Shown one piece after another: positions 59 to 13,221 of a stretch of 43,884 bases of DNA. The stretch covers positions 1 through 43,884 of the forward strand of contig JAHDCC010000026.1 of NCBI GenBank assembly GCA_020630065.1, written 5' to 3'. The stretch comes from Acidimicrobiales bacterium. Its GTDB lineage: Bacteria > Actinomycetota > Acidimicrobiia > Acidimicrobiales > SZUA-35. The notes under the pieces are model-generated. The model made no database searches, was not told the DNA's origin, and was given only the letters and a program-made list of their open reading frames with translations. Position 1 is the first letter of the stretch; every line of letters begins with the position of its first letter. The position numbers and the translations under genes are program-made.

Positions 59-1207
59 TCACTTGAGTTTGATCCGTTGACTAGAAACGTCGTAGCGAAA
101 GTCTGTGATTGTCTCAGCTTCGATCAATCGAACAGCTTCATCGATTACTTCAAGAGGTACATCGAACCATTCGTGCGCTGCAACGACATTTTTCCCATTG
201 CGTTCAAACCAGACATCTAATCGTGCTTGAGCAAAGAAATCGTGAAGCATCCTCTCAACGGTTAAGGCAATGGCAGCTGGCACTTCGTATTCAGCCAGAA
301 CCTCGACTGGAGCACTTAGGAAAGTCGGATGCCTGTGGGCATTCGCCAGCCGCTGTTCAACAGTTTGTGTTGTCGCCCCGATCTTGTGTAGAGATTCAAC
401 GTTTCCCACTTGCGAGCTTTCGCTAAGCGATTTCAATACATAAATCGACCCCATCTCAGTTTCAGGGCTAAGGCCCATCCGTTCAGCGATTACGTCATCT
501 GGTACTGTTACGATCCGACCTTCTTCGTAGAGTAATCTAGCTAAAGAGCGGAGTAGTAAGTCTGCTTCTGTGCCGTTCTCATAGATGCAACGGGTTCGGC
601 CGTCTTGACCTGATCCCCGTTGTTGTAACTCGCCGACTTCGGCTACATAAACTAGCACGCCTGATTGGACGAAGAACTTCCCCTTTTCGATGAATGATGG
701 GTTGCGGAAAGGTAGCAGCTTTCGTGTGCCTTTTTTCAGGTCCCGGTGGCATTGAGCGAAGAGATCTTTGAATTGGTCGAAGTCATCACATGGTTCGCGT
801 CGGGCTACTCTTTCAGGAGCGGCCTGAGCCTGAGGGACATGGTTTAAGGTAAATAGATCTGTGTCGTCGTTGAGTAACCCCATGTCGTCGTCAGCTAGCA
901 CTTCGGCTAGAGATCGAGGAGGTTCAGGTTCGATGAGTAAACCTAAAGAGTCGTGATCTTTCAGAGCTTGCCGATGCTCATCGTTTTCAAGAATAGCTTT
1001 GAGCCTCATAGCTAATTTACTCTCAGCTATATCTCCCCGATTCTTCTCAGGTTCACGTCCATTGGCGACAACGAAATCCACAATTTCGTTGAATTTTGCT
1101 AGGAGACGTTCGTCGCTGCTCATCGGTGTTGGTTTGATAGGTACAGTCAACAGGCCAAAATCATCTTCGGCTACCATTGCGCGCAGCCGTGGCGCATCCA
1201 GAGTCAT
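59..1207 (-). CDS. GIY-YIG nuclease family protein (T5orf172-like), third gene of a restriction-like operon
   Basis: 382-residue protein. The C-terminal third carries the GIY-YIG signature in its T5orf172/Mug113 form: GSIYVLK at residues 253-259, HKIG at 274-277, R286 in the helix, the probable metal-binding E318 in VERMLH, and EWF at 346-348. These are the expected elements of a one-metal nuclease core. The N-terminal half is unlike any domain I recognise, but it repeats a short acidic motif of the form D-[DS]-x-G-L-L three times (residues 15-20, 86-91, 107-112). The start ATG overlaps the helicase stop as ATGA, so translation is probably coupled. By context it is the likely DNA-cleaving subunit of a system whose other parts are a methyltransferase and a helicase; that role is inferred. 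A homing-type or repair function is possible but less likely given the operon. Confidence 0.8.
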   Translation of the reverse strand: MTLDAPRLRAMVAEDDFGLLTVPIKPTPMSSDERLLAKFNEIVDFVVANGREPEKNRGDIAESKLAMRLKAILENDEHRQALKDHDSLGLLIEPEPPRSLAEVLADDDMGLLNDDTDLFTLNHVPQAQAAPERVARREPCDDFDQFKDLFAQCHRDLKKGTRKLLPFRNPSFIEKGKFFVQSGVLVYVAEVGELQQRGSGQDGRTRCIYENGTEADLLLRSLARLLYEEGRIVTVPDDVIAERMGLSPETEMGSIYVLKSLSESSQVGNVESLHKIGATTQTVEQRLANAHRHPTFLSAPVEVLAEYEVPAAIALTVERMLHDFFAQARLDVWFERNGKNVVAAHEWFDVPLEVIDEAVRLIEAETITDFRYDVSSQRIKLK

Positions 1208-3123
1208 ACCCCAACCTCACGACGCTTCTTCTGCAGAAATAGAAGAGCTTCGGCCATACGGCGTTCTAAAGGATCATTGGAACGCACACTTGGTTTCTCA
1301 CCATGTTCGACAGCGAAACGCCGAGCTTTCGGCCATAAGATCAACGCCTCTTCCTCGGTGATCTCGATTCGCGTCGAATCAATAGTGTCCTGGATTACCT
1401 TAAGCACCTGCTTAGTGACCGATTTAGAGAGAATCTCGAACGCTTTTTGAAACGGGTTGACCTGATCAATCAGATCAATATTAAGTTCATCGATATTGAT
1501 AAACCGGTTCGCCATCAGTACGAACTTCTTATCGTCGACTTCTTTAATCTCTCCGTTCTTGACAACCGAATCGACCACAACATGCTGTCGAACCTCTTCG
1601 ACTTCACCTTCGTTAATTTCTGGGTAACGAGTCCGAATAATTTTCGGTATCAAGACTTTGTTCATTACCTCAGGATCGAGGTTGCCCGGCATAGCTTTCA
1701 ACATGGTTTGGTCTTGTAAGATCTGCGCCTTCAGATCGTTCAGATCAGTCTCGACGATCTCTCTGGCCCGATCAGTCGACGGTTCCTTAAAACCTTTGAT
1801 ATGCAGCTCGTCAGGGTTAGAGGCCTCTTCTCCAGTTCGCTTAGTTCTGAACTTGAAGTTCGGCGCTACGACCTGCTCCATCAGAAGCGAAGCCGTGATA
1901 GCTTTGAGCATATTATTGACCGCTACTTTAACTTCACCATCACCCGCATCGGGCTGAGCGATCAGGTTGGTGAACTGGGCATGAGATTTGTTATCACTAT
2001 CACGTGTACATCGACCAATGATCTGAATAATCTCCGTTAGAGAACCTCGATAGCCGACAGTCAAGGCATGCTCACAGTAAGGCCAGTCAAAACCTTCTTT
2101 CGCCATCCCTAAAGCGATAATTAGGTCGAGATCGTCGACCGATTCCATTGTTCGTAGATACTCAACGACCTTCGCCCGCTGCTGGGGTTCATCCATAACA
2201 AGGTCGACAACTTTTATGAGCTTGCCATCGCTGGCTCGCTTCACATAGATAACACCTGTATCTTGGTCTTGACTGACTACCGAACCGATGCTGTCAATAA
2301 TCTCGTCAACCTCACGATGTTTATCCTTGGTAGACTCGCCTGATTGCACGCTAGGAATATGCAGAATCGTCTTTAGGTCAGTATCAAGGACTTCATGTAC
2401 CGTGTCGGTGTATTTGCCTTGATAGAAGTGGTAACCGATACCTAGCGATTTCAAATGGGTGTAGCCGTTCAACTGTTGATAGTAGTTGTACGTCACTTTG
2501 GCGAATTTCGATTCGTCGTTCGGATCGAGCACAGGTACCGCATCCCCACGAAAATATGAACCAGTCATCGCCACAATATGGGCGTTAGTGTTTTTCATCA
2601 CCGACCGAAGTAGCTCTCCCAGTCGGCTATCTTCAGACGCGGACACGTGATGAAACTCATCGATTGCCAAAAGAACATTATCAAAAGAGGTCTCGTCGAT
2701 AGCATCGTGAGCGAATCGCAGAGTAGCGTGCGTGCAAACCAAAATCGACCCAGATCCATCCAGGAACTGCTTTAACGCATCGACCTTGGAATCGTCACCG
2801 CCAGGCGTGCAAAGGTTATTTTTCTCGTCGACTTCCCAATCAGCGAAGAAGCCATGCTCGGTCAGATTAGTGTTAGCGAAGGACGCTCCGATCGACCTCT
2901 CCGGAACAGCGACAATAACTTTCTTAACTCCTTGGTTGAACAACTTGTCCAACGCCAGAAACATCAAAGCCCGAGACTTTCCTGACGCTGGCGGCGCCTT
3001 AATCAGTAAGTACTGGCTTTGACGAGCTTTGAACGCTTCTTCCTGCATCTCCCGCATGCCGAAACTGTCTGTCGCTGTCGATTCCCCGGTTTGGGTGTAC
3101 TCGACATCAATCAAATTAGGCAT
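1204..3123 (-). CDS. SF2 DEAD/DEAH-type helicase/ATPase of a restriction-like operon
   Basis: About 639 residues from the chosen ATG at 3123, which overlaps the methyltransferase stop by 8 bases. A longer frame upstream runs inside the methyltransferase gene and looks spurious. Visible motifs are Walker A (APPASGKS, residues 43-50), DEFH (155-158, DEAH-like Walker B), MTGSYF (motif III) and GRCTRD (motif VI, near residue 405). The two RecA-like domains are followed by about 230 residues without an obvious domain. It resembles the DEAD/DEAH helicases of restriction systems, such as HsdR motors, but has no visible PD-(D/E)xK nuclease. The likely role is ATP-driven DNA translocation or remodelling, coupling methyltransferase recognition to cleavage by the downstream GIY-YIG protein. 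That division of labour is inference from gene order. Confidence 0.85.
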   Translation of the reverse strand: MPNLIDVEYTQTGESTATDSFGMREMQEEAFKARQSQYLLIKAPPASGKSRALMFLALDKLFNQGVKKVIVAVPERSIGASFANTNLTEHGFFADWEVDEKNNLCTPGGDDSKVDALKQFLDGSGSILVCTHATLRFAHDAIDETSFDNVLLAIDEFHHVSASEDSRLGELLRSVMKNTNAHIVAMTGSYFRGDAVPVLDPNDESKFAKVTYNYYQQLNGYTHLKSLGIGYHFYQGKYTDTVHEVLDTDLKTILHIPSVQSGESTKDKHREVDEIIDSIGSVVSQDQDTGVIYVKRASDGKLIKVVDLVMDEPQQRAKVVEYLRTMESVDDLDLIIALGMAKEGFDWPYCEHALTVGYRGSLTEIIQIIGRCTRDSDNKSHAQFTNLIAQPDAGDGEVKVAVNNMLKAITASLLMEQVVAPNFKFRTKRTGEEASNPDELHIKGFKEPSTDRAREIVETDLNDLKAQILQDQTMLKAMPGNLDPEVMNKVLIPKIIRTRYPEINEGEVEEVRQHVVVDSVVKNGEIKEVDDKKFVLMANRFINIDELNIDLIDQVNPFQKAFEILSKSVTKQVLKVIQDTIDSTRIEITEEEALILWPKARRFAVEHGEKPSVRSNDPLERRMAEALLFLQKKRREVGV

Positions 3124-5788
3124 GAGCCAACTCCTGCGTTCTAGTCGCCGCCTCGTACAGCGATAACAATAGTTCGACACGTTCGGCATCGGAATTGAAC
3201 GGTCGCTTGCGATACAGCGAATCCACATAGTCATCGAGCGATTGATGCGTCTTCTTTAAGGCTTTGGGCATCTTGTCCGGGTCATACAAATCAGCCAAAG
3301 TCCTGTCGGGAAAACGCTCCCGACACTCAAGCACGCTAAAAGCGAGATCAGCAATACAACTCTGTTCAGGAGTTTCCATTTCTGGAAATGGAAACGTATT
3401 GTAGACTAATGAGTTTGAGTAGCGATAATCACTCTTCATCCGCCCGCCCACAACTTCGAGCCACGCCATGTGCATACGAGACTGGAGCAGCCCAAACAAC
3501 CAAGGCTCTGCTCCATAAACTGCATACAGCTGGTCTGATGCGACCGTGCCAGCTGGCAAAAAACCCATTGGTATGTACTCGCGCCGCTGGGACGAAACAC
3601 GCGGCACCACGATGGCCTGAGTCTCTTGGTAGGCCCGCTGGACGAACCGGTGCGGTTCATGTGCTAGCTGTTTGGTGCTTTGCGCCTTACTCCCATTTCT
3701 GAAGATTTCCACTTGATGGAGCCGTGCACTAATCGGAGGTATCTTTTGTGCCTGTGCTGCTTCGTTATCATTAATCCAAATGCAGAAGCGCTGAACGCCA
3801 CGAATAAACTCACTCGCCCCAAGGTACGGACGAACAAACTTTGCAGAGTCAGGGTAGTCGTCCAGAAGCTTATCTCGCTCTAGTTTAGTAAGGCTCAGTG
3901 CTCCACCATCACGAGGCATGCTGCCAAAACCCATCGCCGGACGTTGCGAAATAGCCACCTTGCTTTTGTGCACGATTGTGTCGTTATCTGTCGCCAGAAG
4001 GTAAGGGCTGATCCGCTGCGGATGTCGTTCCATCTTATCTTCGAAGAGGGCCTTGGGCTTGGAATTTGGCTGACTAAGACCGACTATAATACAATTAACA
4101 CCAGCTTTACCCTTTGCATTATTTGACCAAGGGAAAGATTTTCGTGCAAAGCTAATCTCGATATCCTTTTCGAAAAGAGCAGGCCACAGAAGAGCTACAT
4201 TTGCACCTTGACAGATTGAATTCGTCGAAACAAAGCCAAGACTCGCGCCATTGTTTTGGATGTAGTCTGCACCTTTCAAGAACCAAAGACTAATATAGTC
4301 CAGATAACGGTCATAATGAGCCGTTCCGAAATAGCTTTCAAAGTCGGCTTTATGTTCAGACCCTTGGATATTTGCACCCAAATACGGCGGATTGCCTAGT
4401 ATGAACACGTTGCCGTCAACATCACTTGGACATACCGCCTCCCAATCAACCTGGGTTGCATTATCGCGTACGATCTTGCCCGTATCTCTCAAAGGAATTA
4501 GCGAAATCTCAACGCCAAAAAGCTCTTCGAACTCAAGGTTCATCTGATGCTTCGCCAGCCATAAAGAAAGAGTTGCCATCTCATGAGCGAAGTCATCAAT
4601 TTCGATGCCGTAAAAGTGTTCTAATTTAATTCCCGATAACTTGAACAGACTACGCTTTGAGGGGTCGAGGTCGGCCATCTGTTGAAGAATTCTGTGTTCA
4701 AGTCGACGGAGCTCTTTGTAAGCGACTACTAGGAAGTTCCCTGACCCGCATGCCGGGTCGAACACCTTAATGCCGCAAATGTCATCTAGTAAGTGTTGCA
4801 ATTTGTTTATCGTCTTCGCATTATTGAGTCTGAGATGTAAGTCGTCGAGAAAAAGCGGCCTTATAACTCGCATGATGTTCTCAACGCTGGTGTAGTGCAT
4901 ACCCAAGCCCTCTCGTTGGCTGGGACGCACGACTGCTTGGATCATCGAACCAAAGATGTCTGGGTTTATTTTGGACCAGTCGAGAGTCCCGCAGTCAAGC
5001 AGAGTCTCCCTTGCTTTAGACGTGAAAGACGGAACTGGTAACGGGGTGGCGAAAAGGCTACCGTTCACGTATCCAAATTCAGTGAAGTACCTTGGTAGGT
5101 TTTTTCGCTCCACCATTTCAGTATTCAGAACTACGAACAAGTCTTCTAGAAATTTGGCTGTGTCAGTGCCGTCGGTCTTCGTGAGAGATCCCACTGCGTT
5201 GGTGAAACTTTTCTTTTGGAAGACCTCGGTGTCTTGGGCGAAGAAGCAAAATAGAAGCCGAGAGAAAAAGACATTGAGGTTACGAACATGTTGATCGCTC
5301 TCAATCGCATTGTGCTTGTTGATCTCGTCGTAGAGGCGAGCCATCTTTTTTGCTGCTTTGACATCGTCATGGTTAGTGTTTTCTACCTCAACCTTTTCGA
5401 TACCTGCCCAAGGCAAGAAAAACGAAGTGTTGGCTGCAAGCTCTTCAATCGGAATGTCAAGCGTCGACTTAGTCCGAGTATCGATAGCAAGAAGGTGAGT
5501 TCTGTTCCTGACAAGTAGGAAACGCGGTTTATATCGAGCTATTGTTTCGTCATTTTGGGCCGAGTCGATAAGTGAGTGAAGGTCTTCGTCAAACTCGACA
5601 AACCGATAGTACAGCTTGCCTTTCCAGAGGTGCTCCAGTTCAGAGTCCAACTGGTCATACGATCCATTCCTCAACCGAGTTATCGACGACCTCGGCAGCC
5701 CATAGGCAGTCAGCAATTCGTAGACAAGATCAAAACCTTTGGTTAAATCTAATCGTGAGACTTTTTCTTCGATTTCATTCAGGTTCAC
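3116..5788 (-). CDS. Class I SAM-dependent DNA adenine methyltransferase (MmeI/Eco57I-like)
   Basis: 890 residues, the size of type IIG/MmeI-like enzymes. Motif I is FDPACGSGNF near residue 340 and motif IV is NPPY near 465, the gamma-class N6-adenine signature. An upstream helical region (GMHYTSVENIM) and a C-terminal target-recognition region follow the MmeI_Mtase/TRD layout. The N-terminal domain, where MmeI has its nuclease, reads LLAIDTRTK...LDIP here and shows no PD...ExK catalytic set, so cleavage is probably delegated to another subunit. The start is GTG with GAGG five bases upstream. The gene is first in the operon and its stop overlaps the helicase start by 8 bases. It probably sets sequence specificity and protects host DNA. 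A purely orphan methyltransferase is unlikely because of the coupled helicase and nuclease. Confidence 0.85.
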   Translation of the reverse strand: MNLNEIEEKVSRLDLTKGFDLVYELLTAYGLPRSSITRLRNGSYDQLDSELEHLWKGKLYYRFVEFDEDLHSLIDSAQNDETIARYKPRFLLVRNRTHLLAIDTRTKSTLDIPIEELAANTSFFLPWAGIEKVEVENTNHDDVKAAKKMARLYDEINKHNAIESDQHVRNLNVFFSRLLFCFFAQDTEVFQKKSFTNAVGSLTKTDGTDTAKFLEDLFVVLNTEMVERKNLPRYFTEFGYVNGSLFATPLPVPSFTSKARETLLDCGTLDWSKINPDIFGSMIQAVVRPSQREGLGMHYTSVENIMRVIRPLFLDDLHLRLNNAKTINKLQHLLDDICGIKVFDPACGSGNFLVVAYKELRRLEHRILQQMADLDPSKRSLFKLSGIKLEHFYGIEIDDFAHEMATLSLWLAKHQMNLEFEELFGVEISLIPLRDTGKIVRDNATQVDWEAVCPSDVDGNVFILGNPPYLGANIQGSEHKADFESYFGTAHYDRYLDYISLWFLKGADYIQNNGASLGFVSTNSICQGANVALLWPALFEKDIEISFARKSFPWSNNAKGKAGVNCIIVGLSQPNSKPKALFEDKMERHPQRISPYLLATDNDTIVHKSKVAISQRPAMGFGSMPRDGGALSLTKLERDKLLDDYPDSAKFVRPYLGASEFIRGVQRFCIWINDNEAAQAQKIPPISARLHQVEIFRNGSKAQSTKQLAHEPHRFVQRAYQETQAIVVPRVSSQRREYIPMGFLPAGTVASDQLYAVYGAEPWLFGLLQSRMHMAWLEVVGGRMKSDYRYSNSLVYNTFPFPEMETPEQSCIADLAFSVLECRERFPDRTLADLYDPDKMPKALKKTHQSLDDYVDSLYRKRPFNSDAERVELLLSLYEAATRTQELAHA

Positions 5789-7095: not shown

Positions 7096-7944
7096 TTAGG
7101 AATGTTTTTGTGTGGCGAAAAGAATTAGCGGGGTTGGACTGGTGACCAGCTGGTTTTCTAGCTTCTTCCGGAGTCTGCTAAGGGTGCTGGCTGCGTCGTC
7201 TATTTGTTTTCGAGTCGCTCCGCCTTCCATCATGTGATTCACTATCTGAGGTTTTTCGAATTCGGATTGAATTGTCTGTATCGTTTCGTCGGGTTGACCG
7301 ATCCGGATAGTCTCCGTTTGGAAAGCGTTGATGCTGGTTAGATCTGGGTGGTTCCTGAGCAGAGTCGGGAGGGTAGCGGCTATGTTTTCGTCGCCATACC
7401 CAGCTATCTGTCTCGCTCTGTTGTAGTAAGCCCATACCTTCCAGAGGCTTGTTGTGTCGATTTCGGAAGCGGCGAGACAGGAAGATAGCAATACTCTGTT
7501 GACATAGTTCATCGGTTCGGCAATAAATAGTGACCCGCCTGGTTTAGTGACTCGGACCATCTCGTTTACGACTTGTCTCGGAGTATGGCAGTGCATAAGT
7601 AGCGTTTGACATGTGGCGAGGTCGAACTGTCTGTCGTCAAATGGCAGATGGTGGGCATCACCTTTGCTGGCTGTGTAACAGTGCTGCGGAACCTGTTCTT
7701 TATAAGCGTATTCAGATTGGGTGACCCAATGCTGTTCAACATCGACCCCAGCTATCTCGATCCGATCAGTGTAGAGAGATGCGAGGAGGGTTCCCCAGTG
7801 CCCACCGCCGACTCCGACGTCAAGCATCGACGAAACAGCACCGATTTCGAGCCGGTTGACAATCGATTCGAGATGCGGTTTTGACCACCATTGGTAGCGT
7901 TCATCGTCGATATAGTCGATTGAGTGAGGTCGGGACGTGTTCAT
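7096..7944 (-). CDS. Class I SAM-dependent methyltransferase, last gene of RiPP-like operon
   Basis: 282 residues. Motif I is MLDVGVGGGHWG (residues 40-51), motif II an acidic residue in AGVDVE, and the post-I region is DLATCQTLLMHC, followed by VTKPGGSLFIAEP, the typical Methyltransf_11/25 pattern. The C-terminal about 100 residues are helical and specific to this protein. It starts 16 bases after the HExxH gene stop on the same strand, so the two are very probably co-transcribed with the precursor peptide. By context it may methylate the modified peptide (side chain or C-terminus), but the sequence alone does not identify the substrate. A stand-alone small-molecule methyltransferase is the alternative. 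Confidence 0.8.
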   Translation of the reverse strand: MNTSRPHSIDYIDDERYQWWSKPHLESIVNRLEIGAVSSMLDVGVGGGHWGTLLASLYTDRIEIAGVDVEQHWVTQSEYAYKEQVPQHCYTASKGDAHHLPFDDRQFDLATCQTLLMHCHTPRQVVNEMVRVTKPGGSLFIAEPMNYVNRVLLSSCLAASEIDTTSLWKVWAYYNRARQIAGYGDENIAATLPTLLRNHPDLTSINAFQTETIRIGQPDETIQTIQSEFEKPQIVNHMMEGGATRKQIDDAASTLSRLRKKLENQLVTSPTPLILFATQKHS

Positions 7945-7960
7945 AGAATTCTACGCTAGC

Positions 7961-8815
7961 TTACGTGACTGCCAGATCGGTTGAGGGGACAGAAAGATGA
8001 CGCAGTGACGTGCCGACTAAATCGAGCAGTTCAATAAGGCGAGGTTGAACTATCCGCATGTTATCGCATGCCTGCTTGAGACTGTCTAGACATGCAAGAG
8101 ACGACCGGTGAAGTTCGATACTGGGCGGGTGAACTTTCGGGTCTGCGGGTTGGCCCACGACGCTACGGTGAGTCAAGATTTCGTTAGCGACGATTAGACT
8201 ATGCAAACACTTATCTAAAGGTCGTCGTTTCTTCAACACAGCCGATACGGCCCAGTTGTTTGTATCAGCAAGGTCGTCAAATGACGTGAAGTACTGGTGT
8301 CGACGTTCGTCAAGAAAGATAAGGTTATGAGTGAACTCGTGAAGCAGAAACTCAGCTGCGTCAACGTTAGTCCATGACCGTTTCGGGCTGCACCATATCA
8401 CGCCCAAAGCGCTAGACACTGAACCGCCAGATGATTGCGAGGAGCGGTGGTAAAACATCGTGTGAATTACCAAATCGAACAAAGAACCAAGAGTGGGATC
8501 TTGGAGACGTAACAGTCGATGCCCCTTGCGCACATGACTCATAGCTTCTTTGCGTGATGAGTCAGAGGTGGCAAGGAAATCGGTTTCGATGTCCGTAATC
8601 ACTGAGTCATCTTGGAAGTGTTTCACAAGACCTTCTATCCTTCCCGGTTCATAGCAATACTGCCCGTCGCTTGGCTGTAAATCAGAGACGCCGGTTTTGA
8701 CAGCAAGATCGACAAGCCGTGATCTCAGCTCGTCAACAGTAGCAGGTATGCTATCGCCTGCTAGGAGGGTAGATACATCTCGTAAAACAGTTTCGCAACC
8801 CAGTAAATAAAACAT
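7961..8815 (-). CDS. HExxH-motif protein, candidate RiPP peptide beta-hydroxylase
   Basis: 284 residues. The centre carries FLLHEFTHN with the HExxH pair at H159-E160 and H163, and about 45 residues later RPLDKCLHSLIVANE. Together these match the pattern I know from the HExxH peptide-modification family (TIGR04267-like, now often called alpha-ketoglutarate HExxH peptide beta-hydroxylases) rather than a secreted metalloprotease. There is no signal peptide. The gene is preceded by AAGGA six bases before ATG and starts 14 bases after the stop of a 56-codon peptide gene, the expected layout of a precursor and its tailoring enzyme. The enzyme would act in the cytoplasm on the peptide core. An intracellular protease remains possible. 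The assignment is from motif and context only. Confidence 0.7.
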   Translation of the reverse strand: MFYLLGCETVLRDVSTLLAGDSIPATVDELRSRLVDLAVKTGVSDLQPSDGQYCYEPGRIEGLVKHFQDDSVITDIETDFLATSDSSRKEAMSHVRKGHRLLRLQDPTLGSLFDLVIHTMFYHRSSQSSGGSVSSALGVIWCSPKRSWTNVDAAEFLLHEFTHNLIFLDERRHQYFTSFDDLADTNNWAVSAVLKKRRPLDKCLHSLIVANEILTHRSVVGQPADPKVHPPSIELHRSSLACLDSLKQACDNMRIVQPRLIELLDLVGTSLRHLSVPSTDLAVT

Positions 8816-8829
8816 CTATTTTCCTTTCT

Positions 8830-9000
8830 TTAGAACATGTCCGATTGCATCGTTGGGTGAGTGTTCATAACAAGTGGTTTACAGGCCCCGTTGGAATACA
8901 TCGCTTCGACAGCGTCATTGGCAGTCGCAGCGTTAGCGATTTCTTCCTCGGTTATTGCCGATGTGATATCAAATAGTTTGTCGGCTAAAAGGTTGACCAT
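8830..9000 (-). CDS. Candidate RiPP precursor peptide, 56 residues
   Basis: This small gene starts at ATG 9000 with a strong AGGAG about ten bases upstream and ends in TAA, 14 bases before the HExxH gene. The first 39 residues are acidic and helix-prone (for example ITEEEIANAATANDAVEAM) and end in SNGA, a plausible leader. The last 17 residues, CKPLVMNTHPTMQSDMF, are different in character, with one Cys (C40), one Asn, one His, one Asp and three Met, and form a plausible core. Asn, His and Asp are typical beta-hydroxylation targets. There is no membrane segment or Nif11/lanthipeptide signature I recognise. Strong translation signals, first place in the operon and a following peptide-modifying enzyme support its being a precursor; the leader/core boundary is a guess. 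Confidence 0.72.
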   Translation of the reverse strand: MVNLLADKLFDITSAITEEEIANAATANDAVEAMYSNGACKPLVMNTHPTMQSDMF

Positions 9001-9216
9001 CAGAAATTTCTCCTTTTTAGGTGGATTTAGTTATACGCAAAGGACGTCAAGGTGATGTTCGCCGTAGAGGTCACTTCACAGGTTTGATCATCGCGCCAAA
9101 CTGGTCTGGTTGTGAACCGCAACTCAAAGACATCTCAAGACATGCCCAAGATGTAGATATGACCCAAGATGTCTGGCCAGCTGTTTGCGGAAGTGGAGGT
9201 CGACTGCCCTATAGGG
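9001..9216 (-). promoter_or_regulatory. Regulatory region of the RiPP-like operon with iterated TCTTG motifs
   Basis: Read on the minus strand, ACATCTTGGG occurs twice 18 bases apart (9172-9163 and 9154-9145), followed by ATGTCTTGAG and ATGTCTTTGAG at about 10-base steps. AGACATCT (9128-9135) and AGATGTCT (9167-9174) form a perfect inverted pair. TATAAC about 29 bases before the peptide start may be a -10 box, but I see no convincing -35, which would fit activator dependence. TAGGGT-T-ACCCTA (9211-9223) is a short palindrome at the end of the Nudix gene. The cluster regulator encoded upstream is the obvious candidate to bind the repeats. Confidence 0.55.
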
Positions 9217-9693
9217 TTACCCTAGATATGGTTCTGAACGGTTTAAGTAATGCTCGATACGTAGCCGCTGACTCGTAGTCATAGCCAGGACATCAATTTT
9301 GGCCGGGTCAACCCAAACCACTTCAGGCGATTCGATGCTTGTCATAGCATCCCCGGCAAGCAAAACAGCGCTGTAGACGATAGCGAACTCCTGGCGCACC
9401 TCACCGTTGCTGGTGTACTCAATGCGATGCTTCGGGTTTGTATAGATCCCTACAAGCCCAACAACAGTGATTTCATAGCCAGTTTCCTCTTTGCACTCTC
9501 GGATGGCCGTATCGACCAGTGACTCGCCGAATTCTTGTGTGCCGCCTGGTAAAGCATAAAAATTATTGTCACTTCTACGAATAAGAAGTAAACGGCCCTT
9601 GTCGTTCGTAACCGCTACTGCCGCTGCCGGGACAATACTATTCACACCAGGAGCGTCTGGGTTATCTATGTGGTCGATACGTCTGGGGCGCAT
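9217..9693 (-). CDS. Nudix hydrolase
   Basis: 158 residues from the ATG at 9693, selected because GAGGAG lies eight bases upstream and the regulator stop is one base away; a longer frame runs into that gene. The Nudix box is complete: G-x5-E-x7-REC-x-EETG from GGTQEFGES to KEETGYEI, following the conserved beta-strand LLLIRRSDN and ALPGG. The substrate, a nucleoside diphosphate derivative, cannot be predicted. It is translationally close-coupled to the DNA-binding protein upstream and in line with the peptide operon. In actinobacteria I recall XRE/DUF5919 regulators paired with Nudix proteins, so it may have a signalling or housekeeping role in control of the cluster. Confidence 0.85.
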   Translation of the reverse strand: MRPRRIDHIDNPDAPGVNSIVPAAAVAVTNDKGRLLLIRRSDNNFYALPGGTQEFGESLVDTAIRECKEETGYEITVVGLVGIYTNPKHRIEYTSNGEVRQEFAIVYSAVLLAGDAMTSIESPEVVWVDPAKIDVLAMTTSQRLRIEHYLNRSEPYLG

Positions 9694-9694
9694 A

Positions 9695-10456
9695 CTATTG
9701 CTCCTCAGATCGGACAGCCGCCGCCCACACTTTTTCGTAGGACTCTGCATACAGCCTAAATATGTTATCTGCGTCGCAGCTTCTCAAATGTAAAGTCGGA
9801 GCGTTGGCTGCGACAAGCCCATAGACATGTGTGTTTACGATCATCTCGTCATCAAATCTATAGATCGAATTGTATAGAACCGTATCATGCAGCCGAATCT
9901 CAAAACAGGTCAAACCACATTCAGTCGCATGACTATTGGGGTTGCTATAAACCTTGAAGGCGTGGCTAGCGCGACCGGCGACAGGGCCGCTAATCTGTTC
10001 ATCATCACCACGTTGCCGAACAGCATCACCAGTGGGTTCACCAAGAAGTACGCGAACCCGCACGCCGTTCCGGCCTAGTTCGCATAACCCTAATACGTAA
10101 CCAGGGAGCTGTTCGTAGAGAAACCCACCTGCATACACCAAAATATCGATTTGAGAACGAGCATCTAGGATTCGTCGCCACAAATCAATTGGAACTGAAG
10201 TTCGATGAGGAAACATCTCGACAAGCGATTCAGGAACGATAGAAGCTGCTGATTTCCGACCTATGGAAGGCCAAAGGGAAGCACTGTCACAGCCCAACGT
10301 TCTCGCAGCCAGTGAACGATGTCGCTTGTAAGGCACCCGCCCCTCATACACCCAACGCTGAACTGTTTTGGGATCTACTCCAACAGCAGCAGCTAGATCA
10401 TAGATTGAGATACCGGAATCATCGATAGCGGATTTTAAATTCTGATTCGAAGCCAA
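9695..10456 (-). CDS. XRE-family regulator with DUF5919-like C-terminal domain
   Basis: 253 residues with a TTG start; an in-frame stop lies just upstream and no better start exists. Residues 1-50 are a helix-turn-helix (IYDLAAAVGVDPKTVQRWVYEGRVP). The C-terminal about 160 residues (IDILVYAGGFLYEQLPG..., VRVLLGEPTGD, LHDTVLYNSIYRFDDEM) match what I remember as DUF5919, a phospholipase-D-like sensory fold without an intact HxK pair. It is the first gene of a same-strand series through the Nudix gene to the peptide operon, and is the likely controller of the iterated motifs at 9123-9174. What it senses is unknown. Confidence 0.75.
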   Translation of the reverse strand: MASNQNLKSAIDDSGISIYDLAAAVGVDPKTVQRWVYEGRVPYKRHRSLAARTLGCDSASLWPSIGRKSAASIVPESLVEMFPHRTSVPIDLWRRILDARSQIDILVYAGGFLYEQLPGYVLGLCELGRNGVRVRVLLGEPTGDAVRQRGDDEQISGPVAGRASHAFKVYSNPNSHATECGLTCFEIRLHDTVLYNSIYRFDDEMIVNTHVYGLVAANAPTLHLRSCDADNIFRLYAESYEKVWAAAVRSEEQ

Positions 10457-10522
10457 ATGAAAGTTTCACTCCCATTCAAATCTACGGAATATCAAACTTT
10501 ATTAGGATTAGATCTTCCCAGG

Positions 10523-10753
10523 CTACATCGATGCCTCCGTTTCTAGCTCATGCTCGACCGCTCGTCGTATCCATGAGGAGACTGATCGGTCGTCGGCGTT
10601 GGCTGCGTTTCGGATTTGTTCTAGGGTGTCTGGTTCGAAGCGGACGGGTACGAGTTCAGTCAAGCGGTTTTTGCGTCGTCGTGGTTTGCCTTGTGGTTTT
10701 TGGTTTTCGGGTTTGTTGTAGAATTCGTGTTCTTCATTCCTGTCCATAATCAT
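10523..10753 (-). CDS. Ribbon-helix-helix antitoxin, module 1
   Basis: 76 residues. The basic N-terminal tail (KPRRRKNRLTE) is followed by a typical CopG/Arc-type ribbon-helix-helix (LVPVRFEPDTLEQIRNAA then RSVSSWIRRAVEHEL). The start overlaps the toxin stop as ATGA, the standard coupling of a toxin-first BrnT/BrnA-like module; an in-frame Met two codons later is an alternative start. It should bind both the toxin and the promoter upstream of the toxin gene. It is almost identical to the protein at 12656-12883, with differences concentrated at the last eight residues, so the two modules arose by recent duplication or repeated acquisition. Confidence 0.8.
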   Translation of the reverse strand: MIMDRNEEHEFYNKPENQKPQGKPRRRKNRLTELVPVRFEPDTLEQIRNAANADDRSVSSWIRRAVEHELETEASM

Positions 10754-11055
10754 TGATCCTTTCTGTATTGATCAGCTAAATATTTCGAAGCGTAGTAACA
10801 GCCGATAGGTCTGCACCGTGTCAGGTTGCCAGAGTTTGGCGGAGCGAGAGCGACCATCAAAACTTTCCCTTCGATTTCTGCGACCATCAGCCAGTGGGCT
10901 GGCGGTTTTGCAGGGTAGAAGATCGGGTCTGATTGCCACACCTCAAAAACATCCTCCACACCCAACGGTGCGTGTTTGAATAGATGAGCTGCCTGAGTGT
11001 CGATCTCAAACGGATCTACCTGATCCAACAGATCGATATCAAACAGTTCAACCAC
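10750..11055 (-). CDS. BrnT-like toxin, module 1 (leaderless start)
   Basis: 101 residues from the GTG at 11055. I prefer this start to the TTG at 11091 because that TTG is itself the -35 box of a consensus promoter whose -10 ends seven bases before GTG. The protein has the layout of BrnT/RelE-like ribonuclease toxins: HLFKH...GVEDVFEVWQSDP, a conserved HWLMVAEI strand and CRPIGCYYA near the C-terminus. A ribosome-independent mRNase activity is likely by family. The antitoxin gene overlaps its stop. A second copy at 12880-13185 differs at only about ten positions. Confidence 0.7.
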   Translation of the reverse strand: MVELFDIDLLDQVDPFEIDTQAAHLFKHAPLGVEDVFEVWQSDPIFYPAKPPAHWLMVAEIEGKVLMVALAPPNSGNLTRCRPIGCYYASKYLADQYRKDQ

Positions 11056-11091
11056 AACCCGAATTGTATTACAAGCGAATACGAAAGTCAA
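11056..11091 (-). promoter_or_regulatory. Leaderless promoter of toxin-antitoxin module 1
   Basis: On the minus strand TTGACT (11091-11086), a 17-base spacer, TACAAT (11068-11063), then seven bases to the GTG at 11055. The same arrangement precedes module 2, with identical -10 and start spacing, which supports function. Confidence 0.75.
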
Positions 11092-11126
11092 AAACTGAAG
11101 ATACAGGCACGTTGTTCATCTACTTC

Positions 11127-11232
11127 AAAACCCTGAAAAGACGTGTTATATCAGGGTGTGCATAGTGTTCTCTTAGGCCCCCTTTAGAGAACACCATGCA
11201 CACCCAGACATAAAGCGCCTTATCAGGGTTTT
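11127..11232. repeat. Nested inverted repeats upstream of module 1
   Basis: The outer arms AAAACCCTGA (11127-11136) and TCAGGGTTTT (11223-11232) are perfect. Inside them, 20-base arms at 11154-11173 and 11186-11205 match at 19 positions around a 12-base loop containing GGCCCCC. The structure lies between the RelE-like gene (ends 11293) and the module 1 promoter. There is no T-run, so it could be a transcription barrier, a replication/recombination hairpin or a small mobile-element remnant. Confidence 0.65.
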
Positions 11233-11292
11233 GGGGCAGGTATCAGCGTTGGTTGGACGGTCTACATCGAAACCTTGCGTGGAGTTGGCTTG

Positions 11293-12655: not shown

Positions 12656-12883
12656 TCAGCTAGCGTTAGCTTGTAGTTCCTGTTCGACGGCTCTGCGTAT
12701 CCATGAGGAGACTGATCGGTCATCGGCGTTGGCTGCGTTGCGGATTTGTTCAAGGGTGTCTGGTTCGAAGCGGACTGGTACGAGTTCGGTGAGTCGGTTT
12801 TTGCGTCGGCGTGGTTTGCCTTGAGGTTTCTGGTTTTCGGGTTTGTCGTAGAATTCGTGTTCTTCGTTTCTGTCCATGTTCAT
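12656..12883 (-). CDS. Ribbon-helix-helix antitoxin, module 2
   Basis: 75 residues, near-identical to the module 1 antitoxin: a basic tail, the RHH strand VPVRFEPDTLEQI and the helix RSVSSWIRRAVEQEL, with a divergent C-terminus (QANAS in place of ETEASM). The start overlaps the toxin stop by four bases. If the antitoxins cross-neutralise, the modules back each other up; changes at the C-terminal end, where RHH antitoxins usually contact the toxin, may insulate them. Substitutions are conservative and the frame is intact, so the copy looks functional. Confidence 0.8.
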   Translation of the reverse strand: MNMDRNEEHEFYDKPENQKPQGKPRRRKNRLTELVPVRFEPDTLEQIRNAANADDRSVSSWIRRAVEQELQANAS

Positions 12884-13185
12884 TTGTCCTTTCTGTAATG
12901 TTGGGCTAAATATTTGGAGGCGTAGTAGCAGTCGATCGGTCTACACCGTGTCGGGTCACCGGAGTTTGGCGGAGCGAGAGCGACCATCACAACCTTCCCT
13001 TTGATTTCTGCGACCATCAACCAATGAGCTGGCGGTTTCGCAGGGTAGAAGATCGGGTCGGATTGCCAGACCTCAAAAACATCATCCACACCCAACGGAG
13101 CGTGCTTAAACAAGTGAGCTGCCTGCGTGTCGATCTCAAACGGATCTACCTGGTCTAACAAATCGATGTCAAACAGTTCAACCAC
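12880..13185 (-). CDS. BrnT-like toxin, module 2 (leaderless start)
   Basis: 101 residues from the GTG at 13185, by the same argument as module 1: TTGATT, a 17-base spacer, TACAAT and seven bases before GTG. It differs from its paralogue mainly at E46D, E75K, N89D/L90P, G97D and the C-terminal YLAQHYRKDK (numbering from the longer frame). Changes cluster near the C-terminal strand and tail. The downstream overlap with the RHH gene is conserved. Upstream, the sequence diverges abruptly from module 1 beyond the promoter, indicating that the duplicated block is roughly the module plus its promoter. Confidence 0.7.
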   Translation of the reverse strand: MVELFDIDLLDQVDPFEIDTQAAHLFKHAPLGVDDVFEVWQSDPIFYPAKPPAHWLMVAEIKGKVVMVALAPPNSGDPTRCRPIDCYYASKYLAQHYRKDK

Positions 13186-13221
13186 GACCCGAATTGTATT
13201 ACAAACGAATACGAAAATCAA
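13186..13221 (-). promoter_or_regulatory. Leaderless promoter of toxin-antitoxin module 2
   Basis: TTGATT (13221-13216), a 17-base spacer, TACAAT (13198-13193), then seven bases to the GTG. The sequence is almost identical to the module 1 promoter except the last base of the -35. Confidence 0.75.

Follow-up and report, generated by a model that had tools for sequence, protein, structure and literature searches.

The window analysed here, a stretch of 43,884 nucleotides (nt) from an Acidimicrobiales bacterium (contig JAHDCC010000026.1), carries three adjoining genes for a 56-residue peptide, a protein with an HExxH motif and a class I S-adenosylmethionine (SAM) methyltransferase. These three genes probably constitute a minimal operon of the RiPP type (ribosomally synthesized and post-translationally modified peptide), in which the segment KPLVMNTH of the peptide would be oxidized and the peptide methylated. 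A RiPP-like layout had been proposed in a preliminary description made from the sequence alone, and the family and fold of the enzyme as well as a core motif encoded upstream of related enzymes support this proposal for the three genes.

According to our proposal, the HExxH protein would act as an Fe(II)/α-ketoglutarate (αKG) oxygenase of the ChlBH/PflC/PesO kind and hydroxylate the C-terminal KPLVMNTH segment of a presumably leader-bearing precursor, with His48 or Pro43 as the likeliest site. The methyltransferase would then methylate the peptide, perhaps at the C-terminal carboxylate as LahSB does. The choice of KPLVMNTH as target, and of His48 and Pro43 as the residues to consider first, follows from analogy with published HExxH enzymes. 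These act on precursors that carry a leader and hydroxylate Gln, Pro, His, Asp or Phe residues (PMC12636437, PMC13060819; here and below, statements on cited work refer to the accessible portions of the papers). PesO, for example, hydroxylates the Pro preceding R(V/T)DN; the same paper mentions earlier cases with His, Asp, Phe and Gln as target (PMC13060819).

Gene organization

The features of the locus are as follows (strand in brackets; aa, amino acids; ORF, open reading frame; RBS, ribosome-binding site).

8830–9000 (−): putative precursor peptide, 56 aa; ORF with RBS, position and core motif as in the upstream ORFs of relatives, similarity tests
8857–8880 (−): codons of the core KPLVMNTH, residues 41–48; tight pattern P[LVM]xMx[AIT][YFHL]
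7961–8815 (−): predicted αKG-HExxH-type peptide hydroxylase, 284 aa; TIGR04267, conserved HExxH, Arg and further His, model match to 8s5f
8327–8341 (−): predicted metal-binding motif HEFTH; from the sequence, with H, E and H invariant in 21 sequences
7096–7944 (−): class I SAM methyltransferase, 282 aa; Methyltransf_11, closest solved relative LahSB (6uak), residues 39–148 only
9001–9216 (−): gap between the two modules, possible operator; CCCAAGATGT repeats and an inverted pair
9217–9693 (−): Nudix hydrolase, probably outside the pathway; NUDIX domain, homologue behind the XRE gene in 5/5 other loci
9695–10456 (−): XRE/DUF5919 regulator, neighbouring module and probably outside the pathway; DUF5919 domain match

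All five ORFs were located on the minus strand, in the order from XRE to methyltransferase, and the domain scans agree with the names first given to them: DUF5919 in the XRE protein (24.2 bits, cut-off 23.5), NUDIX in the Nudix protein (63 bits, cut-off 21.1), TIGR04267 mod_HExxH in the HExxH protein (60.4 bits, cut-off 40) and Methyltransf_11 in the methyltransferase (69.1 bits, cut-off 21.2). The same scans assigned no significant domain family to the 56-aa peptide. The tight spacing attributed to the whole set holds within two blocks, but not between them. The peptide and HExxH genes are separated by 14 bp and the HExxH and methyltransferase genes by 16 bp. The XRE and Nudix genes adjoin or overlap, depending on the Nudix start (its longest ORF reaches 9750 and thus overlaps the XRE gene), and 216 bp lie between this pair and the other three genes. 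The five genes are two modules, an XRE–Nudix pair and a peptide/HExxH/methyltransferase operon. As noted earlier, the ATG of the peptide ORF is closely preceded by a strong RBS of its own (AAAAGGAG). Its stop codon runs directly into the RBS of the HExxH gene (TAAAGAAAGGAAAATAGATG), and from this arrangement of signals the two genes are judged to be translationally coupled.

A core motif upstream of related HExxH genes

The preliminary description had regarded the lack of a conserved peptide beside homologous HExxH genes as evidence against its reading; such a peptide is present in most loci. An ORF with the loose core pattern ends at most 450 bp upstream of the HExxH gene in 26 of the 28 HExxH loci that underlie our motif and neighbour counts, compared with 3 of 166 other genes of at least 200 aa from the same loci, which is above what chance would give. 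With the tight pattern the figures are 12/28 and 1/166. In L033, the ORF expected directly before the enzyme gene has 32 aa; the match lies in another ORF and is probably due to chance, which would leave 25/28. The two loci without a core ORF are L016 and L037. It should be kept in mind that the core pattern was derived from the same peptides and that independent information in this comparison comes from the control rate; the final pattern was drawn up without the window. Identical peptides in L022/L023/L025, L008/L032/L036 and L034/L035 reduce the 28 loci to about 23 independent ones. Omitted from the motif count were L029, L030 and L031 (where the gene start is interrupted or close to a contig edge), L013 (a weak second match in genome G714), L010 and L038 (which coincide in position with L003), the second HExxH genes of L005 and L017, the second gene of L037 (L012), the second Acinetobacter plasmid record H2, and the family-model matches L040–L051.

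The upstream ORFs of the relatives are short and end in a PLxMxx[H/F/Y]-like core. It reads QPLRMQIH in Geobacillus, Anoxybacillus, Priestia and Exiguobacterium, KPLRMQIH in S. warneri, IPLRMIAY in Acinetobacter, GPMNMLAF in Xenorhabdus, GPVQMFAL in Streptomyces boluensis, PVVMIAF in Bdellovibrionales, and SMMGGW and AMMGGW in G714 and Nocardia. A Cohnella ORF (L027, 5284–5514) contains the core twice (LLKMKIHE in both copies) and offers a natural test of core identity. In an NCBIfam scan of ten upstream peptides, no family exceeded the cut-off. An ORF upstream of the L016 enzyme (RPFFMPCF) was considered as a precursor and dropped, because a terminator-like hairpin and its T run lie within it.

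The HExxH oxygenase

TIGR04267 scored above its cut-off in 21/21 aligned members of the enzyme family, and H158, E159, H162, R197 and H204 (numbered from the second residue) are invariant in this alignment. The AlphaFold2 model of the window protein (pLDDT 86.3) matched the HExxH domain of ChlB (8s5f) both in Foldseek (expect value, E, 3.4e-8; TM 0.53) and in VIA-align (Z 20.2, rmsd 3.1 over 237 residues). The second match was SjiH (22ob, Z 17.1), named here after its PDB title alone; a literature search listed no paper by that name. The next row reached only Z 6.5. A sequence profile search with the HExxH protein also recovered 8s5f (E 0.0022), and identity to the solved members is 10–16%. 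Family model, conserved residues and predicted fold place the window protein in the TIGR04267 αKG-HExxH family with a ChlB-type fold, as a predicted hydroxylase.

Cleavage of the peptide, hydrolytic or oxidative, instead of hydroxylation only, with the methyltransferase capping the new end, is an unlikely course of events. The window peptide does not contain the ARMD motif before which PflC and PosC cut oxidatively, and KPLVMNTH has neither Ala nor Gly, one of which PosC needed at its site (PMC12636437). What speaks for cleavage is the oxidative cutting by PflC and PosC itself, and also that PflC hydrolyses a leaderless substrate (PMC12636437), that no protease is encoded beside the genes, and that Gly and Ala directly precede the core (NGACKPLVM).

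The enzyme is rare in its surroundings. It is the sole TIGR04267 match in its own genome, and used as query it found matches in 1/395 genomes of the class (itself) and 2/396 genomes of the phylum. With the TIGR04267 model as query, 12/246 genomes of the phylum were matched; 9 of these 13 matches sit in open frames of at least 484 aa, unlike the 284-aa window protein. Relatives were detected in 7 plasmid records, one Bacillus phage record (SPbetaL1) and 23 loci of the genome_contigs collection, covering six phyla (Actinomycetota, Pseudomonadota, Bacillota, Bdellovibrionota, Myxococcota and Armatimonadota). Scans of genome_contigs and viral_contigs with a single protein as query yielded no relative, nor did four alignment-based scans of viral_contigs, and SPbetaL1 is the sole phage match. 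In the class of G714, a profile search gave matches in 2/296 genomes, one of them G763. Some loci contain more than one enzyme gene: the S. aureus plasmid pPH1-1 (L005, 4046–5879) has two tandem HExxH genes behind one 42-aa ORF, followed by a gene of the major facilitator superfamily (MFS), and two HExxH genes in a row are present in S. boluensis (L017).

Exporters and the enzyme tree

An MFS or ATP-binding cassette (ABC) exporter gene was detected by profile in 22 of the 28 loci. Ten loci encode a downstream protein of 442–465 aa whose end is of the ABC-type ATPase kind and which contains a P-loop and a conserved DEWDANLD. Its gene directly follows that of the enzyme, or lies one gene further in the three Xenorhabdus loci. 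Twelve other loci have an MFS protein on either side of the enzyme gene, although the matches in L017 (E 5e-13) and L037 (E 7e-16) are weak and possibly represent unrelated transporters. Neither type was found in six loci (L003, L007, L009, L016, L032 and L036); some stretches are short. The enzyme tree splits by exporter type, with the window enzyme on the ABC side (support 100/99); for this tree, L032 was labelled MFS through its near-copy L008, and the label of L017 was left blank. The nearest row to the window enzyme is L016 (94/88, on a long branch), where no ABC gene is present and a nucleotidyltransferase gene follows the enzyme.

The preliminary description had seen no radical SAM enzyme, lanthipeptide synthetase, protease or transporter in the set. 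Our scans likewise gave neither an exporter or protease gene nor a further maturase gene next to the operon, in contrast to the exporter genes of most HExxH loci. In the window, the methyltransferase gene occupies the place that the exporter has in most relatives. Searches of the window's own genome gave only weak ATPase matches to the ABC partner and a single MFS match of moderate strength (E 1.9e-14), which lies on another contig.

The methyltransferase

The closest solved relative of METHYLTRANSFERASE, the window methyltransferase (7096–7944), is LahSB (6uak; E 9e-12), with other methyltransferases following at E 4e-9. LahSB adds a methyl group to the C-terminal carboxylate of lanthipeptide precursors and does not need a leader (PMC11285071, a review). 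Relatives of the window methyltransferase were found neither on plasmids (E 1e-10) nor on phages (E 1e-5), nor in 147 other genomes of the class (E 1e-20) or 197 other genomes of the phylum (E 1e-15). The methyltransferase and the HExxH enzyme are both rare in their surroundings, which fits a joint arrival without proving it.

A distant relative of the methyltransferase (E 1.6e-9) is encoded in L019, at a distance of about 3 kb and on the opposite strand. L037 (1–8600; contig C169 of G763) comprises a gene for a 635-aa first protein, a methyltransferase gene and an MFS gene, together with two HExxH genes that face each other around a gene for a tryptophan-halogenase-like flavoprotein. This cluster is likely a larger peptide pathway; we counted it among the loci that lack the peptide.

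Assignment of the window peptide to the core family

The C-terminal end of the window peptide reads CKPLVMNTHPTMQSDMF and contains the core KPLVMNTH at the place where the S. warneri peptide has KPLRMQIH. Among the 477 small ORFs of the window, the peptide is the only match to the tight pattern P[LVM]xMx[AIT][YFHL] and one of four matches to the loose pattern. A position-specific scoring matrix (PSSM) of the core ranked it first of 550. A hidden Markov model (HMM) of eight non-Bacilli peptides, aligned with L-INS-i, ranked it first of 597, and 6 and 9 of 5000 shuffles scored as well. Taking similarity, position and coupling together, there is good, though not overwhelming, evidence that the window peptide belongs to the core family.

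Several observations weigh against our reading of the operon. In the core PSSM, 707 of 20000 shuffles scored as well as the window peptide. An HMM of all 21 peptides placed it second of 597. With G-INS-i it came second and fourth of 597, and 97 and 162 of 5000 shuffles did as well. L016, the nearest enzyme, has no peptide, its upstream ORF spanning the terminator. Among the 28 loci, a methyltransferase gene is directly adjacent only in L037, which is a different cluster. The genes neighbouring the window operon include neither an exporter nor a protease. The LahSB match is confined to residues 39–148, the cofactor-binding domain, and the single-sequence fold of the methyltransferase failed (pLDDT 38.1); for these two reasons its likeness to LahSB is a lead only.

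The mixed strength of the similarity tests, together with the missing peptide in L016, would also suit an explanation in which the 56-codon ORF is not a substrate and the HExxH protein and methyltransferase act on a host protein or a small molecule. We consider this improbable in view of the strong RBS and the coupling to the enzyme gene, and because the core motif occurs where 25–26 of the 28 relatives have it. For a precursor-like ORF adjoining the HExxH gene, as our operon reading has it, position, coupling and core motif agree.

The XRE–Nudix module and the gap

The preliminary description counted the XRE and Nudix proteins as members of the pathway, which the loci of other genomes do not support. 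An XRE relative is present in 1/147 other genomes of the class, where the Nudix gene comes next. A plasmid search gave six records with an XRE relative, and the best four of these six are all Streptomyces plasmids with the XRE gene followed by the NUDIX gene. In the five other XRE–Nudix stretches (L053, L055, L056, L057 and L058), both genes are homologous to those of the window, with identities of 29–39% for XRE and 46–49% for Nudix (36–39% and 48–49% for the Streptomyces plasmid pairs). XRE/DUF5919–Nudix is hence a conserved two-gene unit of Streptomyces plasmids and one genome of the window's class. In 5/5 of these stretches, no HExxH gene was detected by profile. The HExxH loci (the 28 loci plus L029–L031, L038 and L039), in turn, gave no match at E 0.001 to either protein of the pair. 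Both results argue that XRE–Nudix is a unit of its own. On plasmid L058, a gene annotated as a peptide-maturase-system methyltransferase lies about 4 kb from the XRE gene.

The gap between the Nudix and peptide genes contains two CCCAAGATGT repeats (9145–9154 and 9163–9172, 18 bp apart) and an inverted pair (9128–9135/9167–9174). They form a possible operator, although the occurrence of one repeat pair within 216 bp does not prove this, and regulation of the peptide operon by the XRE protein is possible. RNA folding of the gap gave a hairpin no better than shuffles (z 0.07), and a search against Rfam returned no match. That all five genes form one pathway, with the XRE/DUF5919 protein controlling the peptide operon via these repeats and the Nudix hydrolase making or removing its small ligand, would accommodate their shared strand and order as well as the repeats and the inverted pair. 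We nevertheless think it doubtful, given the separate occurrence of the two modules elsewhere and the lack of a repeat copy near the XRE start (10440–10560).

Relation to known systems

The described αKG-HExxH peptide hydroxylases (ChlBH, PflC/PosC, PesO and BipH) share with the window protein the family model, the fold, the HExxH motif and an adjacent small precursor-like ORF. They differ in their setting, since the clusters described in the accessible texts contain other maturases (radical SAM, MNIO, nitroreductase and AS-like enzymes; see also PMC12707348, PMC12452194), one enzyme being fused to a radical SAM protein, whereas the window combines a stand-alone enzyme with a methyltransferase only. 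Closer to the window are the peptide/HExxH/exporter loci found here (Geobacillus, an Acinetobacter plasmid, Xenorhabdus and others), which likewise pair a short PLxMxx[H/F/Y]-like ORF with a stand-alone homologous enzyme, but mostly include the MFS or ABC gene that the window does not have. LahSB resembles the window methyltransferase in its RiPP setting and as best solved match, limited to the domain mentioned above. The Streptomyces plasmid pairs resemble the XRE–Nudix module in homology and adjacency of both genes, and differ in having no HExxH gene.

The window could tentatively be viewed as one branch of a minimal, mobile and so far undescribed RiPP class, consisting of a precursor with a PLxMxx[H/F/Y]-like core, a stand-alone αKG-HExxH oxygenase and an exporter, and spread over at least six phyla, plasmids and a phage. 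In this branch the methyltransferase would have replaced the exporter, and the oxidized and methylated peptide would stay in the cell or leave by a borrowed route. We found no description of such two- or three-gene sets in titles and opening abstracts of PubMed Central (PMC), a source that largely leaves out the subscription literature, so an earlier description is possible.

As far as the accessible literature goes, αKG-HExxH oxygenases were only recently shown to modify peptides, and this in clusters with other maturases. In the loci presented here this is reduced to one enzyme and one short peptide, so that two genes suffice for testing leader recognition and site choice. The common core, the separation of the exporter types in the enzyme tree and the occurrence on plasmids and a phage suggest a small peptide system of wide distribution, to which the window adds a putative methylating variant.

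Genomic setting

The G+C content averages about 0.49 in the first 16 kb of the contig and about 0.55 in the remainder. At 1204–5788, in the low-G+C part, a gene for an MmeI-type restriction-modification enzyme adjoins that of a helicase-like protein with weak PbeA/Cas3-type matches; matches to the defence library are weak here and look like general domain similarity. The low-G+C segment, its restriction, helicase-like and repeated genes and the relatives on plasmids and a phage lead us to infer that a mobile island is likely. The repeated genes are a ribbon-helix-helix protein and a 113-aa protein, encoded as a pair twice (10523–11091 and 12656–13221, 2130 bp apart) with a 300-nt block that is 87% identical. 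This duplicated two-gene unit is perhaps toxin-antitoxin-like, and it is accompanied by a 48-nt inverted repeat at 11126–11233.

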